Positions 12,554 to 22,237 of a stretch of DNA of 64,000 nt are shown piece by piece. This stretch comes from Betaproteobacteria bacterium UKL13-2 (lineage in GTDB: Bacteria > Pseudomonadota > Gammaproteobacteria > Burkholderiales > Usitatibacteraceae): positions 1,359,733-1,423,732 of the forward strand of contig CP012157.1 in NCBI GenBank assembly GCA_001602455.1. Reading direction: 5' to 3'. The translations under genes were made by a program, and so were the position numbers. Position 1 is the stretch's first letter; the number at the start of each line of letters is the position of its first letter. The notes under the pieces were generated by a model. The model made no database searches, had not been told where the DNA came from, and worked only from the letters and a program-made list of their open reading frames with translations.

Positions 12554-13708
12554 ATGTCCGGAAGCACGCTCGGTAAGCTTTTTGCAGTCACAAATTTTGG
12601 CGAATCTCACGGTCCCGCCATCGGCTGCGTGATCGACGGCTGCCCGCCGGGAATGGCGCTTTCAGTCGACGACATTCAGCCCGATTTGGATCGCCGCAAG
12701 CCTGGCACGTCACGCCATGTCACGCAGCGGCGTGAAGATGACCGGGTGGAGATATTGTCCGGCGTGTACGATGGACAAACCACCGGTACACCGATTGCGT
12801 TGCTGATTCGCAATGAAGATCAGAAGAGTAAGGACTACGGCAATATCGCAGACGCATTCCGCCCGGGGCACGCCGATTACACCTACTTGCAAAAATACGG
12901 TATTCGCGATCACCGTGGCGGTGGGCGCTCTTCAGCGCGATTGACCGCGCCGACGGTGGCGGCGGGGGCTGTGGCCAAAAAATGGTTGAAACAAAAATAC
13001 GGCGTCGTTGTTAATGGCTACTTGGCGCAACTCGGCGAAAACAAAATCCCGTTTGAGTCATTGGTTCACGTTCACGACAATCCTTTCTTTGCGGCGAACG
13101 CAACCATGATCGCCGAGCTGGAAACGTACATGGATAAGCTGCGCAAGTCCGGCGAGAGTTGTGGTGCACGGATCAATGTAGTTGCATCAGGTGTTCCGGT
13201 GGGATGGGGCGCACCGATTTACGATCGCCTTGACGCCGCAATCGCCTATGCAATGATGGGCCTAAACGCGGTCAAAGGTGTTGAGATTGGCGCCGGGTTT
13301 GCCTCGGTCGAACAGCTCGGCACACAGCATTCGGATGAGATGACACCAGAAGGTTTCTTGTCCAACAATGCAGGCGGAGTGTTGGGTGGCATCTCTACCG
13401 GCCAGGACATCACAGTTTCAATTGCGATCAAGCCAACGTCATCCATCCGTCTCGATCGACAGACGATCAACAAAGCGGGTGAATCCGTGGTGATCAATAC
13501 CCACGGCCGCCACGACCCGTGTGTGGGCATTCGCGCAACACCGATCGCCGAAGCGTATCTTGCGCTGGTGTTGATGGACCACGCGCTACTGCACCGCGCT
13601 CAGAATGCGGATGTGATGGTTGCCACGCCAAAAATTGCGTCATCCGCGGCAACCTCTTCAGCGTCTACAAAGGGGCGCGCCGACAATCACGACCCAAACG
13701 AAGCGTAG
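12554..13708 (+). CDS. aroC: Chorismate synthase
   Basis: AroC converts 5-enolpyruvylshikimate-3-phosphate to chorismate, the last step of the common aromatic pathway, with reduced FMN as cofactor. Clear family sequence: [20 protein letters not shown] at residues 7-26, [25 protein letters not shown]-type segment at about 100-124, and GGISTGQDI and [17 protein letters not shown] later. At 384 residues it has about 20 extra C-terminal residues rich in Ala, Ser and Thr ([17 protein letters not shown]) that lie outside the catalytic fold. It feeds the trp genes at 30.7-33.4 kb. The start ATG lacks a strong Shine-Dalgarno; CCC TAA ATC precedes it. Confidence 0.97.
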
Positions 13709-13839
13709 GCGGGCTGAGAGCTGCACGCTGGGTCTACTTTTTGTAGATCGCCGGAGCGGAACCCGATGTCGAGCGATATTCATCCTGCGGTGCCTATGCG
13801 TTAGCGGGCTAAAATAGCCGGAAATCTATTGGGGTCGCA

Positions 13840-16824
13840 ATGCCGCGTAAACCATCAAGCCAGCCGCCAAAAAACGCCGCCGCCGTTCCCACGGCGAAAG
13901 CAATGCCGCGAGTTCCGAAGCAAAAGGCGGCAAAAGCCGCTGACCTTGGGCCGGTTGACTACCGCCACGGCGATAAAGCGCTCGCACGACCTGACGTCGG
14001 CACGCAGTCGCAGTTTCGACAAAAGAAGGTGCCCGCCACCTATCACTACGACTCTTCCATTTCGCCCGCACTCGACTGGGATAGCCAGAATTCATCGCGA
14101 GAGAAAGGCGAGGTGCTCATCGCAGCACTAGAAGCGCAGATTAGTGGACTCAAAGCGTTGCTACTGCCCGCGCCCCAAGCGGTTGCTGTCGCGAAAGGCA
14201 AGAAAGCAACCATTACCCCGGCCATTGCAGCGAGCGGCCACGCGAGCCCCAACATTGCCGACATTGAGGCTAAGCTCATTGCGGCGCAGGATTCCCTGAG
14301 CAAGCTAAAGGCGCTCTCCAAACCCTTCTTAAACTGGTCCGGCAAGGCCGAGCGCCTCTCGTTCGACGTGCCGACGCTGCCACTGTTTGTGCATGAGCGA
14401 CTTTCGACTAAAGCGATTCTCGAAACGCTCAAGGGCCATCGTAAGGAAAAGCAGTTGGACATGTTCGATCTCTTCGCTGATGCCGAGCGGCCGGTGCATG
14501 AGCAGGTGCTGAAGGCCTACCAGTATCAGGACGACTGGGTCAACCGGATGATCTTGGGCGATTCGCTGGTGGTGATGAATTCGCTCATCAACTACGAAGG
14601 CATGCGTGGCAAGGTGCAGATGATCTACTTTGACCCGCCGTATGGGGTCAAGTTTGGTTCTAACTTCCAGCCGTTTGTCCGCAAACGCGACGTTTCGCAC
14701 AATGACGACGAAGACATGACGCGCGAGCCGGAGATGGTGCAGGCCTACCGCGATACCTGGGAATTGGGGCTGCACTCTTACCTTACCTATTTGCGGGACC
14801 GCCTGCTGCTTGCGCGCGAGTTGCTCACGACCAGCGGTTCGATCTTTGTGCAAATCTCGGATGAGAATTTGCATCACGTGCGGGAAGTGATGGATGAGGT
14901 TTTTGGGGCTGAGAATTTTTGCGCTGTCATCAACTTTAAGACGATGATGCCACTTGAGTCGGGCGACATTGAGTCGGTTGTTGATTACCTAGTGTGGTAT
15001 TCGAGAGACAAGGAAAATCTCAAGTACCGGAACCTGTACGTCCCGAAGAGCGTTGGCGAAGGATCTGAGTTTGTCTTTGCGGATACGCCTGACGGGGGAT
15101 ACAGAAGGCTTAGTTCCGCCGAAGTAAAGGACTTCGCAGTTACCGCTTCGAACGAGGCGATATTCAAACGGTCAGATCTCACATCGTCGGGGTATACCCA
15201 GTCGTGCATCTTTCCCATTTCGTTCGATGGAAGAGTTTTCGAAACTGCAAGGGGAAAGAGTTGGCGCACCACGCCTGCTGGAGTTGCGAAGTTAGCTGAA
15301 GAAAATCGGCTATTCGTACTCGGCAATCGGATTTACTACAAGATGTACTTGAGAGACTTCGGGTATAAATCCATGACGAACCAATGGGATGACACGATCG
15401 AGTTTGGAAGCCGTCTGTACGTTGTCCAAACCACCTCAACAGTAATCCAGCGCTGCATGCTCATGACCACCGACCCCGGTGATCTGGTGCTTGATCCGAC
15501 CTGCGGCTCTGGCACAACGGCCTATGTCGCCGAGCAGTGGGGCCGCCGCTGGCTGACCATTGATACCTCCCGAGTCCCGCTTGCTCTTGCGCGGCAACGA
15601 CTACTGACCGCAACCTATCCATGGTATGAATTGAAAGACGATGCCGCTGGCCCCGGCGGCGGTTTTGTCTACAAACGCAAACAGAACAACAAGGGAGAGG
15701 AAGTCGGCGGCATCGTGCCGCATATCACTCTGAAGTCGATTGCCAACAACGAACCGCCTGCCGAGGAAGTGCTGGTGGATCGACCAGAACCAGTGCGTGG
15801 GGTCACACGCATTAGCGGGCCGTTTGCGTTTGAGGCGACGATTCCGAATGTCGTAGAACTTGAGTCGGGAAGCCAAACACAAAGCGGGGCGGGGGTTTCC
15901 AGCCAAAACGTCTCGAAAACACCCGCTGATGCTGGAGTTTCAGAGAATCGCGCTGAGCCCGCTAGCTTCGTTGATCGTCTGTTGGAGATTCTTCGCAAGT
16001 CGCCCGTGGTGCGGGTGGGCGGCAACAAGACGGTGACATTCAAGAATCTGCGTCGCCCCGCCAAAACGCTCTCGCTCTCGGCCGAAGGCTTGGTCGTGAA
16101 TGGTGAGGACAAACCAGTCGCGTTTGTGTTCGGCCCCGAGAACGGCGCGGTAGTGGAAAAGCTCGTGTTCGAAGCGGCGAAGGAAGCCTTCGCGAAAAGC
16201 TATACGCATCTCTACGTGGTGGGCTTTGCCATCCAGCCGAATGCGCGGAGCCTGATCGAAACTTGCAATGAGGTCGTCGGCATTGCCGCCACCTATGTAC
16301 AGGCCACCCCCGATTTGTTGATGGGGGACTTGCTCAAAAACATGCGTTCATCGCAAATTTTCTCGGTATGCGGGATGCCAGAGATAGCCCTTCGCAAAGT
16401 GGAAGCGCCAAAAACGGAAGAAGCCATTCGCGCGAACGTCAGCAAGGCGAAAGCTAGTGAGCGCGACGAGCAGTGGTACGCGGTGGAGCTGATCGGGCTG
16501 GATGTGTTTGACCCGGTGACGATGGAAGTTGACCACCGCAGCGGCAAACAAGTGCCTGCGTGGTTCCTCGATACGGATTACAACGGCTTGTCGTTTCACG
16601 TCACCCAAGCGTTCTTCCCCGAAACCAAGGCTTGGGAAAATTTGAAGCGCGCTCTCGGCGCAGACTACGAGAGCGATGTATGGTCACATCTGGCAGGCAC
16701 CGTCTCTGTGCCTTTTGTGGCAGGAGAGCACAAAGAGATTGCGGTGAAAGTGATCGACCATCGGGGGAATGAACTGATGGTCGTTGCCAAGCTGGAGGAT
16801 GCCTTGTTGGAAGATACCAAATGA
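13840..16824 (+). CDS. mod: Type III-like DNA methyltransferase (Mod)
   Basis: An N6-adenine DNA methyltransferase giving the host its own methylation mark and, with Res, target recognition. Catalytic motif DPPYGVKFGSNFQPF begins at residue 265 and the AdoMet-binding motif DPTCGSGTTAYVAEQWG at 552, the order of beta-class/type III enzymes. About 285 residues lie between them and include the probable target-recognition domain (about 365-535). At 994 residues it is longer than classical Mod (roughly 600-700), with a basic Ala/Pro-rich N-terminus and a ~370-residue C-terminal extension of unknown role. The gene overlaps the ATPase gene by ATGA. A possible -10 (TAAAAT, 13810-13815) lies upstream. 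Confidence 0.9.
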   Translation: MPRKPSSQPPKNAAAVPTAKAMPRVPKQKAAKAADLGPVDYRHGDKALARPDVGTQSQFRQKKVPATYHYDSSISPALDWDSQNSSREKGEVLIAALEAQISGLKALLLPAPQAVAVAKGKKATITPAIAASGHASPNIADIEAKLIAAQDSLSKLKALSKPFLNWSGKAERLSFDVPTLPLFVHERLSTKAILETLKGHRKEKQLDMFDLFADAERPVHEQVLKAYQYQDDWVNRMILGDSLVVMNSLINYEGMRGKVQMIYFDPPYGVKFGSNFQPFVRKRDVSHNDDEDMTREPEMVQAYRDTWELGLHSYLTYLRDRLLLARELLTTSGSIFVQISDENLHHVREVMDEVFGAENFCAVINFKTMMPLESGDIESVVDYLVWYSRDKENLKYRNLYVPKSVGEGSEFVFADTPDGGYRRLSSAEVKDFAVTASNEAIFKRSDLTSSGYTQSCIFPISFDGRVFETARGKSWRTTPAGVAKLAEENRLFVLGNRIYYKMYLRDFGYKSMTNQWDDTIEFGSRLYVVQTTSTVIQRCMLMTTDPGDLVLDPTCGSGTTAYVAEQWGRRWLTIDTSRVPLALARQRLLTATYPWYELKDDAAGPGGGFVYKRKQNNKGEEVGGIVPHITLKSIANNEPPAEEVLVDRPEPVRGVTRISGPFAFEATIPNVVELESGSQTQSGAGVSSQNVSKTPADAGVSENRAEPASFVDRLLEILRKSPVVRVGGNKTVTFKNLRRPAKTLSLSAEGLVVNGEDKPVAFVFGPENGAVVEKLVFEAAKEAFAKSYTHLYVVGFAIQPNARSLIETCNEVVGIAATYVQATPDLLMGDLLKNMRSSQIFSVCGMPEIALRKVEAPKTEEAIRANVSKAKASERDEQWYAVELIGLDVFDPVTMEVDHRSGKQVPAWFLDTDYNGLSFHVTQAFFPETKAWENLKRALGADYESDVWSHLAGTVSVPFVAGEHKEIAVKVIDHRGNELMVVAKLEDALLEDTK

Positions 16825-18485
16825 TCCTCAAACGCGTCGTCCTTAAGAACTTCAAGCGCTTTGATAGGCTGGAATTCGACTTACCCGGCCACACTGTGAT
16901 CGCCGGCCCGAACAACATGGGCAAGACCACGCTGTTGCAGGCGATTGCAGCGTGGGATTTGACGTTTCGGACATGGCAAGGACTGAACAGCAAGCACAAG
17001 GCTGGTGGATATTACGAGTACGCACCGATCGCGAGGCAAGCGTTCTCAGCGGTGCCACTGCGACGTTTTGATTTGCTTTGGTCGGAGCGGAAGACCTCGG
17101 GGCCTATTGAAATTGGTCTCGAGTTCGACTCCGGTTTCTCGATCAGCATGGAGATCAAACACGACAGCACTGAACAGATCAAGGTGCGCCCGAGCAAGGA
17201 AGTCGATTACTCCTCGGCAAAGCTGTTCGACGTTCGAACGGTGTTTGTACCGCCGATGAGTGGACTGCTCCCGGAAGAGCCGTTGTACGCGATCCCGGCG
17301 TTCATTGACGCAAGACTCGCTCAAGGGAGACCCGGTGAGGTCTTGCGCAACTTACTGGTAGCCGCACATCAAGGCAGCGCTTGGCAGCCGCTACAGCAAG
17401 CCATCAAACGACTTTTTAACTACGAGTTGCTGCCGCCCGCCGTTGGCGCGAACATTGTCGCGGAGTACACCCGCCCCGGCACCACAGCAACATACGATAT
17501 CGCTAGTGCGGGTAGTGGCTTTTTGCAGGTGTTGATGCTGCTCACCTTTCTGCACACGCGCCCCGGCTCGATCTTGTTGCTCGATGAGCCAGACGCGCAT
17601 CTGCACGTGATCCTTCAAGACGCGATTTACGGTGAGCTACGCTCGGTGGCCGCGGCGAATGGCTCGCAACTCCTCATCGCCACGCACTCGGAAGTCATTA
17701 TCGAAAGTGTTGATCCGCGCGAGTTATGCCTTATGTATGGCAAACCAAAGTTACTATCGACGACAGAGGAGCGAGCCAAGCTGATCCAATCGCTCGGCGT
17801 GCTTACACACACCGACATCATGCTGGCCGAAAATGCGCCCGGTGTGTTTTATGTGGATGACTACACGGACATGGATGTCCTGCGCGCTTGGGCGCGAGTC
17901 TTGAATCACAAGGTCGAATCGTTGTTAACAACAGAGTTGCTGTGGAAAGCGCGAGTCATTCAACAACGCGATGGCGCATCGGGTATCCAAGCTAAAGACC
18001 ATTTCGACGCCCTCCAATTGGTTAGGCCCGGTCTACCCGGACTTCAATTGCTTGATGGAGATGCCCATCAAGGCCAGAAGCAGTGTCTTACCTACGCCGG
18101 TGGCCTCCAACGGCTGCGCTGGGAGTGGTATGAAATAGAGAGTTACTTGGTCGATCCAAGAGGCCTTGACAGGTTCGTGACTCAGCAAGTGGGTGCCCCC
18201 AACGCAACTGCGGCTATCGCGGACTTGCGGGCTGAGATGGAAAGGATGTTTCGAAAGGAATTTCTGCAAGATCCTATGAACCCCGAGCCGCTGGTCGCAA
18301 GCTTTTTGCGAACGACAAAGGCTCGCAAAGATATCCTGCCCGCATTGCTACAGGCCGCCGGTCTTCACAACATTCCCTACACGCGCTACCACGAGATCGC
18401 GGCGTTGATGCGTCCAGACGAGATTCCGATTGAAGTTATTGAGAAGCTTGATGATATTTGTCGGGTTTTCGGTGTGGAGCCATGA
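16821..18485 (+). CDS. AAA ATPase with TOPRIM/DUF4435-like C-terminus
   Basis: A RecF/OLD-type AAA ATPase of 554 residues. Walker A is GPNNMGKTT (about 29-37). Walker B and the D-loop are GSILLLDEPDAHLH (about 249-262), with the switch histidine in LLIATHSEVI (about 287). After the ATPase comes VFYVDDYTDMDVLRAWARVL, then LQLLDGDAHQGQ and RWEWYEIESYLVDPRGLDRF. These resemble the acidic motifs and the EIExYL pattern of TOPRIM/DUF4435 nucleases, with Asp where the usual leading Glu would be. This two-part design recalls fused PARIS (AriA-AriB) or class OLD nucleases. It lies between mod and res with ATGA overlaps on both sides, so it is made with them. Its exact part in defence is inference. Confidence 0.75.
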   Translation: MILKRVVLKNFKRFDRLEFDLPGHTVIAGPNNMGKTTLLQAIAAWDLTFRTWQGLNSKHKAGGYYEYAPIARQAFSAVPLRRFDLLWSERKTSGPIEIGLEFDSGFSISMEIKHDSTEQIKVRPSKEVDYSSAKLFDVRTVFVPPMSGLLPEEPLYAIPAFIDARLAQGRPGEVLRNLLVAAHQGSAWQPLQQAIKRLFNYELLPPAVGANIVAEYTRPGTTATYDIASAGSGFLQVLMLLTFLHTRPGSILLLDEPDAHLHVILQDAIYGELRSVAAANGSQLLIATHSEVIIESVDPRELCLMYGKPKLLSTTEERAKLIQSLGVLTHTDIMLAENAPGVFYVDDYTDMDVLRAWARVLNHKVESLLTTELLWKARVIQQRDGASGIQAKDHFDALQLVRPGLPGLQLLDGDAHQGQKQCLTYAGGLQRLRWEWYEIESYLVDPRGLDRFVTQQVGAPNATAAIADLRAEMERMFRKEFLQDPMNPEPLVASFLRTTKARKDILPALLQAAGLHNIPYTRYHEIAALMRPDEIPIEVIEKLDDICRVFGVEP

Positions 18486-21400
18486 GTAGTTTTGAAGTTG
18501 CCACCCCGATACTCAATTCGCCTTTCGAAGAGCCGAAAGAGCATTGGTGGATTGTTGAGGGGCAGGATGCCGAGCGTCGCGAGGGTCGTCGCTTTGCGCA
18601 TTACTTCTATCGCGATCCGCGTTCCGGTGGCAAAGGTGGTGTTGAGTCCGATACGGGTACGATGATCGAGCTAAAGCTCGTTTCACGCATCCGAACACAG
18701 ATGTTGGCGTGGCGCGAGCTAGCGTTGCGCGGCGAGGGTGGTGTGACGCGCACTACCCACGAGTTGCTCAACTATTGGAGCCGCGAGGGTAGGCAGACGC
18801 CATTGTTTTTCGCGCAGCGCGAAGCTGCTGAAGCGGTAATCTTCTTGACCGAAGCGCGCGCGGACTTCTTGCAGGGCATCAACGTCCCACGGGATGAGCC
18901 AAGCGATGAGGCCAAAGCAGATGGGTACGCGGGGTTCTTGCGCTATTGCTGCAAGATGGCGACGGGCTCTGGCAAATCGACTGTGATGGGGATGCTTGCT
19001 GCGTGGAGCATCCTGAATAAGCAGAGCGACCGTAGCGATGCTCGATTTTCTGATGTAGTTTTGGTCGTCTGTCCAAACGTAACGATTCGAGACAGGCTGG
19101 CAGAGCTCGACCCATCTCGCGGTGAGGCGAGTCTGTACCGGACACGGGATTTGGTGCCGCCGCATTTGATGTCCTCACTGATGCAGGGACACGTGCTCAT
19201 CACAAATTGGCACGCTTTCGAAGCGCAGAGCCCAAACGCGGGTGGTGTGTCGGCTAAGGTATTAAAGGCTGGCGTGCGGGAGCAGCGTATTGAGACCATC
19301 ACGATTGGTGACAAGACCACAACTGCACGTGGCACACGATATTTGACGCTCCCCGACTTTCGGCGGCAAGTCGATGCGGGATTATTGCGTGTCATTGAAG
19401 AAATTCATGACAAAGACGGCGAACTCGCTAAGGTGCGGGTTGAGACGAATCGCTACCGCGAAAGCGATACGGCGCTGATCGAACGCGTATTGGGGCGGGA
19501 GATCGGTGGAAAGCGAAACATCCTAGTACTCAACGACGAGGCGCATCACGCTTATCGGATTCGGCGCGATGAAGCAGATGAGTTTGAGCAAGACCTCTTC
19601 GGAGAAGATGAAGAGGCCGAAGAGTTTTTCAAGGAAGCGACGGTCTGGATTGAAGGTCTCGACAAAGTGCAGAAAGTTCGCGGCATTAACGTGTGTGTGG
19701 ATTTCTCTGCTACACCGTATTTCTTGGGGCGTGTTGGGCAGCAAGCGGGACGGCCTTTCCCGTGGATCGTCAGCGACTTTGGGCTGATAGACGCCATCGA
19801 ATCCGGTTTGACGAAGATTCCGCAGTTGGCGGTCCGTGACGCGAGCGGCGCGGCGATTCCCGGGTATTTCAACATTTGGGAGTGGATCAAGCCACAACTC
19901 ACCGCCAGTGAGCGCGGGGGTAAGAAAGCGGCGCCAAAGCCGGAAGCGATATTGAAGTACGCCAATGTGCCAATTGCTATGCTGGCAGGCCTCTGGGAAC
20001 AAGAATTCAGACTGCAAGAGTCTCGCGGGGCCGAGGCACGGCTGCCGGTGTTTATTTTGGTATGCAAGAACACCAAGATCGCTTCGGTCATTTTTGACTG
20101 GTTAGCGAACAACAAAGCACCGCATGGCATCCCCGCTTCGCCGTTTGCGCTATTTCGCAACGGCCCGGACGACATCGTAACGATTCGCGTGGACTCCAAG
20201 GTTGTACAAGAAACCGATTCGGGTGCGGCCAAGGAAGATGAGTCCCGCTGGATGAGATTTACGCTTGACACCGTTGGCCGCCGGGACTGGCCGAGAGATG
20301 GGCAATTGAGAGCCGTCTATCCACCGGGATTTGTTGAATTGGCGCAAAAGCTTGATCGACCGTTGCACCCGCCTGGCCGAGATATTCGCTGCATCGTTTC
20401 CGTGGGAATGCTGACGGAGGGCTGGGACTGCAACACGGTTACCCACATTGTTGGGCTACGGCCTTTTATGTCGCAACTGCTTTGCGAACAGGTTGTCGGT
20501 CGCGGCTTGCGGCGAATGCATTACGACCTTGGGGCGGACGGCAAATTTAGCGAGGAGACTGCGAAGATTTTTGGCGTACCGTTTCAGGTCATTCCGTTCA
20601 AGGCAAACCCGACCGGCGTGGCCGTTGAGCCCCCAGTTCGTACCCATGTGCATGCACTGCCTTCGCGCGCAGAAAAATTCGCGATTCGGTTTCCACGCGT
20701 GGAGGGATACACCCAATCCATTCGCTCAAAGATCGTCGTTCATTGGGATGAAGTACCAGACCTCAAGTTCAACGCCTACAAGATTCCGCCTGAGGTGGAG
20801 ATGAAGCGGCTTTCCGTGACTAATCAAGGACGACCCGCGCTAACGGGGCCGGGAGTATCGGAACTTGTGGATCTGACCGCGTATCGCCGAGAGCGTCGCC
20901 TGCAAGAACTGGAGTTTGAGATGGCGAGGTCAATCACGCTCGATCTGATCGAGAGTCGACGATGTGAGATTCCTGTGCACACCTTATTCCCGCAAGTGTT
21001 GGCGGCGTCGCAGCGATATGTGGCTCACCATGTTCAAATCAGTCCGCCGCATGATAAGCGTGATGCGTTCCTGTCACCGTATTACGGCTGGATGGTAGAG
21101 AAGCTATCCGAGGCGATTCGGCCAGACACGGTTGGAGGTGATGCGCCCGAAGTGCCGCGTTATGAATCCCGACGTGGGGCGGGTAGCACGGGCGATGTGA
21201 GTTTCTGGACAAGCCGCCCTGTGCGCGAAGTTCTGAAGAGTCACGTCAACTACGTTGTAGCAGACACCGATAAGTGGGAGCAGTCGGCGGCGTACTATTT
21301 GGATCGTCACCCTCGAACGCGGTCATTTGTAAAGAACGCCGGATTGGGATTTGCGATTCCCTATTTGTACAACGGCGAGCAGCATGACTACGTACCCGAC

Positions 21401-21601
21401 TTTGTTGTCAGGCTTACGGATGAGGACGAGCGTTACGTTGTATTAGAGACGAAAGGCTATGACCCGCTAGAAGACGTTAAGCGAGCCGCTGCTGAACGAT
21501 GGATGAAAGCCGTAAATGCCGATGGTCGTTACGGGATTTGGCGCTACGCCGTTTCGCGCGACCCACATCAAATCCCCAAGCTGATCGAGTCATTCACCTG
21601 A
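18482..21601 (+). CDS. res: Type III-like restriction helicase-nuclease (Res)
   Basis: An SF2 helicase plus PD-(D/E)xK endonuclease, the restriction subunit partnering Mod. Walker A is [12 protein letters not shown] (about residue 160), the DEAD-box motif NDEAHHAYR (about 352), motif [12 protein letters not shown], and motif VI is [11 protein letters not shown]. The C-terminal nuclease shows YVPDFVVRL (PD at about 972) and VLETKGYDP (ExK at about 989). The 1,039-residue length fits Res. ATG 18482 overlaps the preceding stop (ATGA); the longer reading from 18458 lies inside the ATPase gene and is rejected. All helicase and nuclease motifs look intact, so the system is probably active. Confidence 0.9.
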
Positions 21602-21658: not shown

Positions 21659-21789
21659 TGATTGCCCCCCCAAACTCTTCGCTCCTGACGCTTTGCGATA
21701 AGCTGTGGAATGACCACGTCGTTAATAAAGAAACTGACGGCACCGCGTGTATCTATATTGACCGTCACCTAGTCCATGGGGTCACCAGC
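21658..21789 (+). pseudogene. leuC 5' fragment (promoter-proximal 44 codons)
   Basis: A diverged copy of the start of leuC. Both proteins share DKLWNxHVV, [20 protein letters not shown], and at DNA level the match is roughly three quarters of bases. Similarity stops abruptly after GTCACCAGC at 21789; beyond it the sequence belongs to the ion-channel gene. It is in the same orientation as the intact leuC 630 bases downstream. I read it as a relic of a recombination or insertion event that displaced or duplicated the 5' end, possibly with DNA from a related strain given the divergence. The open frame continues to 22083 but without leuC likeness. Confidence 0.75.
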
Positions 21790-22237
21790 CATCGCAATGC
21801 GGCTCGCGGTCATTTTGATGCCGGAGTGGGACCTGCGCCTATACGACGCGCTGTTTGCGGCGCTGAATTTATTCTTGCTGTCGACACTGATCGGGCGTCG
21901 GGTGCTCGCGCCCGGCAGAATCAATGTGCATCGAATTCGAGGCGCAATTGCGGTCTATTTGCTGGTCGGTTTACTGTTCGGCCAGGTGTTTCGGGCCATC
22001 GCCCTGCATGCTTCGGGAGCCTTTTTGTATCTTGGGAAACCTGCGGCGTACTCGGATATCATCCAGCATCTCACCTACTTTAGCTTCGTTTCACTCACCA
22101 CGCGTGGCTTCGGCGACATCACCCCCGTACATCCCATCGCGAAGGCAATGACGCTGCTGGCGACGGTGTTTGGCACCTTGTATCCGGCGGTGCTGATCGG
22201 TCGGCTGGTCCCCCAAGAGCTGCTGCACCAGCGGTAG
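21776..22237 (+). CDS. Two-TM potassium-channel-like protein, N-terminally short
   Basis: The C-terminal half is an Ion_trans_2 pore: a first helix ([20 protein letters not shown]), a pore loop with the selectivity filter [10 protein letters not shown] (classical TTVGYGD, here with Arg and Phe), and a last helix ([20 protein letters not shown]). Up to 153 residues fit if translation starts at ATG 21776 inside the leuC remnant; ATG 21797 or 21815 are alternatives. Homologous channel proteins usually have two or more further N-terminal helices, so this gene was probably cut by the same event that left the leuC fragment. It may be a pseudogene or be expressed from the remnant's promoter in another frame. 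The unusual filter raises doubt about K+ selectivity. Confidence 0.6.

Follow-up and report, generated by a model that had tools for sequence, protein, structure and literature searches.

Why does a gene for an ABC-type ATPase with a predicted TOPRIM domain lie between the two genes of a restriction-modification (R-M) enzyme, and is it bound to that enzyme or only housed beside it? The question is raised by a 64,000-nucleotide stretch of Betaproteobacteria bacterium UKL13-2 (contig CP012157.1, positions 1,359,733 to 1,423,732; hereafter the window), in which mod, an ATPase-TOPRIM gene and res follow one another on the + strand; aroC and leuC flank this operon, and the contig measures 3.39 Mb. 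A preliminary description had proposed that the ATPase senses inhibition of its own R-M system, as in PARIS. We consider it probable that the type III-like R-M operon instead serves as a chassis, with mod and res enclosing a cargo slot, and that the slot here holds an ABC-ATPase/TOPRIM protein of the OLD/PARIS kind, acting as a free-standing second layer.

Exchange of the gene between mod and res

We compared the window with its congener G377 (locus L033), whose operon occupies the same site. Protein identity between the two was 94.0% for leuC, 95.4% for mod and 95.6% for res, whereas it was 50.8% for the ATPase; synonymous differences per site (pS) were 0.43, 0.29 and 0.54, respectively, and 0.80 for the ATPase gene. 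DNA similarity falls in the last mod codons and is back at the res start. Judged from these sequences, the ATPase gene in this pair is a replacement. Rapid amino-acid evolution of the ATPase was ruled out because saturation of synonymous sites was confined to the ATPase gene and did not extend to mod, res or leuC, and divergence of the whole site was ruled out by DNA identities of 88% in the aroC stretch and 85% in the res-to-asd stretch; past 26.9 kb, the DNA match to the L033 genome was just 68–71%. The window ATPase clusters with those of L037 (G370, same genus) and L038 and not with that of L033 (approximately unbiased (AU) test, p 0.026); therefore, the L033 lineage was probably the recipient of the new gene. 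Among 210 pairs with more than 200 shared columns in each gene, L053 showed the same pattern against L068 and L057 (AU p 3e-5).

What appears to be the strongest case of exchange was found within another genus. The res genes of G217 (L021) and G316 (L177) were 99.36% identical over 3101 bp of DNA, beginning at base 2 of the start codon, and 55 bp of mod were identical up to 16 bp before the mod end. Between these flanks, L021 carries an ATPase-TOPRIM gene and L177 a HEC-01 pair (HEC, Hma-embedded candidate).

Slot contents were then read across genomes with Res as the anchor; the sets comprised 369 genomes belonging to the class (threshold E <= 1e-100) and two further phyla with 396 and 395 genomes (threshold E <= 1e-120). 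Res of at least 57% identity was present in 19 genomes; the starting points G000, G783 and G784 and the unreadable G1018 (contig end) were left out, giving 15 slots. Eight of these held an ATPase-TOPRIM gene (G217, G867, G880, G935, G975, G1165, G1234 and G1471), four were empty (G342, G1061, G1144 and G1193), one held HEC-01 (G316) and two held an antisense two-gene pair (G983 and G1077). The whole of mod was out of sight in G880, whose contig ends inside the ATPase gene, and in G316, whose contig ends after 55 bp of mod. The antisense pairs in L210 and L216 had no Pfam match on either strand, and the open reading frames (ORFs) of 273 and 311 aa at these loci were rejected as cargo, being probably shadows of the pairs. 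Other contents appeared in the four genomes with Res identity of 45–46%: a CBASS cyclase with Cap15 (L219), three ORFs without any Pfam match (L218), a Y1 transposase-like gene (L233) and, in L220, which is not clean, an 87-residue mod fragment and a DUF499 gene followed by AAA and AIG2-like genes. Among the five loci at 38–39% identity, mod and res were directly joined in four, and no mod was recognized in L221. L176 has an Mrr-type restriction gene (L176:12290-13126) upstream of its mod-res pair, the slot of which is empty.

The slot edges were conserved. RGNEL was present in the Mod tail of 30/30 loci with a readable mod end, whether the slot was full or empty (31 loci compared; L177 was excluded as it has no mod ORF), and the Res head was likewise alike in full and empty slots. 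These edges bear on whether the arrangement reflects ordinary defense-island clustering, i.e., genes brought together by chance or shared mobility, for which the mod-res position would be meaningless. Such clustering would suit the aroC-leuC interval, which is itself variable within the genus, and the many other neighbors found across the wider ATPase family. However, two separate exchanges are both bordered by the last mod codons and the res start codon, both flanks are conserved whether the slot is full or empty, and cargo is present in 11 of the 15 slots that could be read among close Res relatives, leaving this explanation little probability.

The slot contents also bear on the idea that the ATPase is an integral subunit, serving translocation, regulation or proofreading in the R-M enzyme. 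R-M-linked ATPase genes were found in at least six phyla (Pseudomonadota, Nitrospirota, Myxococcota, Binatota, Acidobacteriota and Abditibacteriota), in which the mod-ATPase-res order is kept, as would be expected of a subunit. Nevertheless, mod-res pairs occur with no third gene between them (L176, L208, L214 and L231), and the near-identical res of L177 has another module in place of the ATPase; we regard a subunit as very improbable. On the cargo-slot reading, exchange takes place within conserved flanks, so that a lineage can switch its second layer while its methylation specificity is unchanged, and it may proceed by recombination through these flanks.

The operon and the predicted fold of its cargo

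The preliminary description had the three genes welded by ATGA overlaps, and both joints were confirmed (16821-16824 for mod/ATPase; 18482-18485 for ATPase/res). The ORF list starts res at a TTG at 18458; the conserved start MSSFEVATP corresponds to the ATG at 18482. Feature positions are collected in Table 1.

Table 1. Coordinates of the operon, its slot and the ATPase-TOPRIM motifs in the window
Feature	Position	Strand	Description
mod	13840..16824	+	994 aa; beta-class N6/N4 DNA methyltransferase subunit, type III-like R-M
Conserved Mod tail VKVIDHRGNELMVV, left slot edge	16744..16785	+	RGNEL
Cargo slot	16786..18481	.	Here the ATPase-TOPRIM gene and the last mod codons; abrupt sequence change at both borders
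ATPase-TOPRIM gene, OLD/AriAB-like	16821..18485	+	554 aa; AAA_21, AAA_15, AlphaFold model, Foldseek
ABC-type ATPase head	16821..17801	+	Residues 1-327; Walker A GPNNMGKT, signature-like SAGSG, Walker B LLLDEPDAH, THS
C-terminal TOPRIM domain (predicted)	17808..18482	+	Residues 330-554
TOPRIM motif 1, VDDYTD	17853..17870	+	Residues 345-350
TOPRIM DxD motif, DGD within LLDGDA (410-415)	18054..18062	+	Residues 412-414
YEIESYL motif	18129..18149	+	Residues 437-443; EIESYL at 438-443
res	18482..21601	+	SF2 (superfamily 2) helicase and PD-(D/E)xK nuclease, BPTD_3080 family
Conserved Res head, right slot edge	18482..18547	+	Return of DNA identity at the start of res

Mod matched N6_N4_Mtase (PF01555; E 1.7e-25) and the PADLOC model MTase_III (508 bits). 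Its motif order, with DPPY (265-268) ahead of DPTCGSG (552-558), is that of the beta class, as in a type III Mod; DPPY and the D/G/G of DPTCGSG did not vary across 28/28 Mod rows. The length of Mod, described earlier as unusual, is ordinary, since 28 Mod rows above 800 residues span 842–1096 matched residues. Res scored 994 bits with NF046055 ("BPTD_3080 family restriction endonuclease"), above that model's cut-off of 800, and Pfam RE_endonuc gave an E value of just 0.061. It combines SF2 helicase motifs with a C-terminal PD-(D/E)xK nuclease, as a type III Res does; the checked residues of GSGKS, DEAH, SATP and GRGLRR were invariant in 38/38 rows, and those of PD...ExK in 34/34 rows reaching that motif. 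No Hma model was among the PADLOC matches listed (25 of 53 for Mod, 25 of 153 for the ATPase and 9 of 9 for Res). A small Ion_trans_2 potassium-channel-like ORF (21776-22237) lies between res and leuC, and one lies at the same site in L236. In the five congeners with both ends of the aroC-leuC interval visible (L236, L239, L241, L242 and L243), the R-M operon is absent and the interval contains an ion-channel gene, another ORF or little.

The ATPase head matched AAA_21 (E 2.8e-19) as well as AAA_15. The AlphaFold model of the whole protein had a pLDDT of 92.5, and its best Foldseek match was the OLD nuclease 6p74 (6.3e-13). As ATPase matches filled the list when the full-length structure was searched, a separate model of the TOPRIM domain was made; AriB was then its best fold match in one of two programs. 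A profile of the C-terminal domain matched no solved sequence at E <= 5, and therefore the TOPRIM assignment rests on fold and not on sequence. The chain is thus predicted to join an ABC ATPase and a TOPRIM domain, as in the OLD family. The C-terminal half had earlier been likened to TOPRIM/DUF4435, with structure prediction set as the test that could overturn the idea: the TOPRIM part was borne out by the fold, whereas DUF4435 had no match in the window protein and only weak matches in 5/33 aligned domains. PADLOC AriA scored 72.8 bits on the ATPase, below the 80.9 bits of NsnB, and there are matches to many ABC ATPases; AriAB reached 58 bits only, its best stretch lying inside the ATPase part.

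VDDYTD, LLDGDA and EIESYL, all previously pointed out, are present. We aligned the proteins of 57 of 80 loci with that of the window (58 sequences, 33 of which form the domain set). In the YEIESYL motif, E440 and Y442 were found in 58/58 sequences and E438 in 57/58; in the DxD motif, D412 was found in 56/58 and D414 in 45/58. Position 346, the TOPRIM Glu site, is Glu in 53/58 sequences and Asp in the window.

Relatives of the ATPase and its possible tie to the enzyme

At least 301 relatives of the ATPase turned up when the genome_contigs collection was scanned; the best 80 were retained and read for up to four ORFs on each side. Among the 24 of these 80 with at least 44% identity, 20 adjoin mod and/or res, L043 adjoins a res fragment, and L051, L052 and L056 (46–53%) have neither gene; the co-occurrence with mod and res anticipated in the preliminary description was thus upheld by the survey. 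Among the other 56, L112 and L115 have both mod and res within four ORFs. The ATPases of these two loci are distant (~30% identity), and their order, res-ATPase-mod, is the reverse of that in the window. A single-protein query found no close ATPase relative on viral contigs, and the relatives on plasmids all stayed below 30% identity and covered the protein only in part. At L041 (9001-11246), a 104-residue ORF comes after an intact ATPase-TOPRIM gene and ends as a second ATPase tail beside res, possibly an exchange scar.

We considered whether the ATPase-TOPRIM is a guard of the PrrC type, bound and silenced by Mod-Res and firing in response to a phage inhibitor of the enzyme. Its embedding in the operon with gene overlaps and the preference of its relatives for the mod-res slot are both consistent with a guard, and a precedent has been described in PrrC of EcoprrI (PMC12707154). 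However, Mod and Res of 95–96% identity are paired with ATPases of 51% identity, relatives' slots hold HEC-01 and CBASS, and L051, L052 and L056 lack mod and res altogether; a guard is therefore unlikely. Because unlike modules share the slot and so divergent ATPases sit with such similar enzymes, we favor an autonomous, most likely abortive, second layer. The same exchange leaves the proposed sensing of its own R-M system unsupported as stated, and the empty, HEC-01 and CBASS slots of relatives also disfavor it.

Several observations weigh against the cargo-slot reading. The ATPase state is strongly clustered on the Res tree (Res rows above 600 residues), with 5 changes, 3 of them forced by starred branches, against a shuffled mean of 11.1, indicating that the state is inherited as well as exchanged and that exchange of the whole module is infrequent. 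That the ATPase subfamily is found mostly in the mod-res slot could also reflect a functional link with Mod/Res. Differences from L033 extend outside the slot as well: identity is 52% over the first 50 Mod residues and 65–69% in the DNA at about 13554-14054, including the spacer before mod. The L177 contig holds just 55 bp of mod, a search of its bin found no mod elsewhere, 55 bp is a usual assembler k-mer length, and most loci are contigs of metagenome-assembled genomes. Some slots may sit in decaying loci, as mod is in two frames in L210, res contains stops in L216, and res is in two frames in L217. Finally, by its sequence, the window's own copy of the ATPase may be weak or dead, with Asp346 in place of Glu.

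Relation to known systems and meaning

The ATPase-TOPRIM is best read as an OLD/AriAB-like abortive-infection effector, with phage defense as its putative role. It would be produced together with Mod and Res, and its ATPase head would restrain the TOPRIM nuclease as long as neither a phage product nor a phage-induced DNA state was present. The freed nuclease could then cut host or phage nucleic acid, either tRNA, as AriB does, or DNA, as OLD/GajA does, and the cutting would halt the infected cell; restriction itself would be independent of the ATPase-TOPRIM. AriB cuts tRNA-Lys (PMC11455837) and OLD proteins cut DNA (PMC10568477).

The window protein differs from PARIS (AriA/AriB or fused AriAB) in being one 554-residue chain inside an R-M operon, in lacking the TOPRIM Glu, and in its weak AriAB match and unmatched DUF4435, and it may not be PARIS itself. 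A review (PMC10568477) describes OLD class 1 as solitary, class 2 as accompanied by a UvrD-like helicase and class 3 as accompanied by a retron; by that account, the window protein fits none of the three within a family that includes P2 Old, T. scotoductus OLD, GajA and the retron Eco8 effector. The ATPase neighbors are mod and res, and not the UvrD/PcrA/Rep-like helicase adjoining a class 2 (Gabija) gene. In L163 (6256-15980), a BPTD_3080-type res and then mod precede a relative of the ATPase (583 aa) with a UvrD-type helicase, an R-M system joined to a Gabija-like pair. PrrC and RloC join an ABC ATPase to a HEPN-type anticodon nuclease domain, whereas the C-terminal domain in the window is predicted to be TOPRIM-like. 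PrrC also differs in its type I host, the type IC locus EcoprrI, while the window shows exchanged cargo in a type III-like host.

Embedding is already known for type I R-M (PrrC and DarTG2) and for Hma (HECs). DarTG2 is embedded between hsdS and hsdR; like the cargo in the window, it is a whole defense module set inside an R-M locus, and four genomes carry a different gene pair at its site (PMC12255303). It differs in its type I host and toxin-antitoxin cargo. The HECs of Payne et al., as cited there, sit in Hma, and thus share the embedding principle, and indeed the HEC-01 pair of L177, whereas the host here is mod-res. The window Res exceeds the BPTD_3080 cut-off, yet 16/27 family loci read have the order res-X-mod; X genes scanned in such loci (L151-L171, phylum survey) matched NYN, Bro-N or GmrSD or had no Pfam match. 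L166 has a REase-ARP gene after res and no recognized mod. In the literature outside preprints, we found no report of an exchanged mod-res slot in type III-like R-M or of its main tenant; the preprint of Payne et al. may list type III hosts.

A broader proposal can be made only tentatively: this type III-like R-M branch, which is widespread, could be a general carrier with an evolved slot, bounded by the conserved Mod tail and Res head, that trades whole second-line systems of the abortive-infection type (ATPase-TOPRIM, HEC-01, CBASS and others) under the same methylation, with the cargo coupled to R-M failure. The relatives described here form a natural experiment, in which closely alike R-M enzymes are paired with different second layers or with none, and the question of guard versus passenger for embedded effectors thereby becomes directly testable. 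The slot is also a place to mine for new defense modules, including two antisense pairs and one slot with three ORFs lacking Pfam matches.
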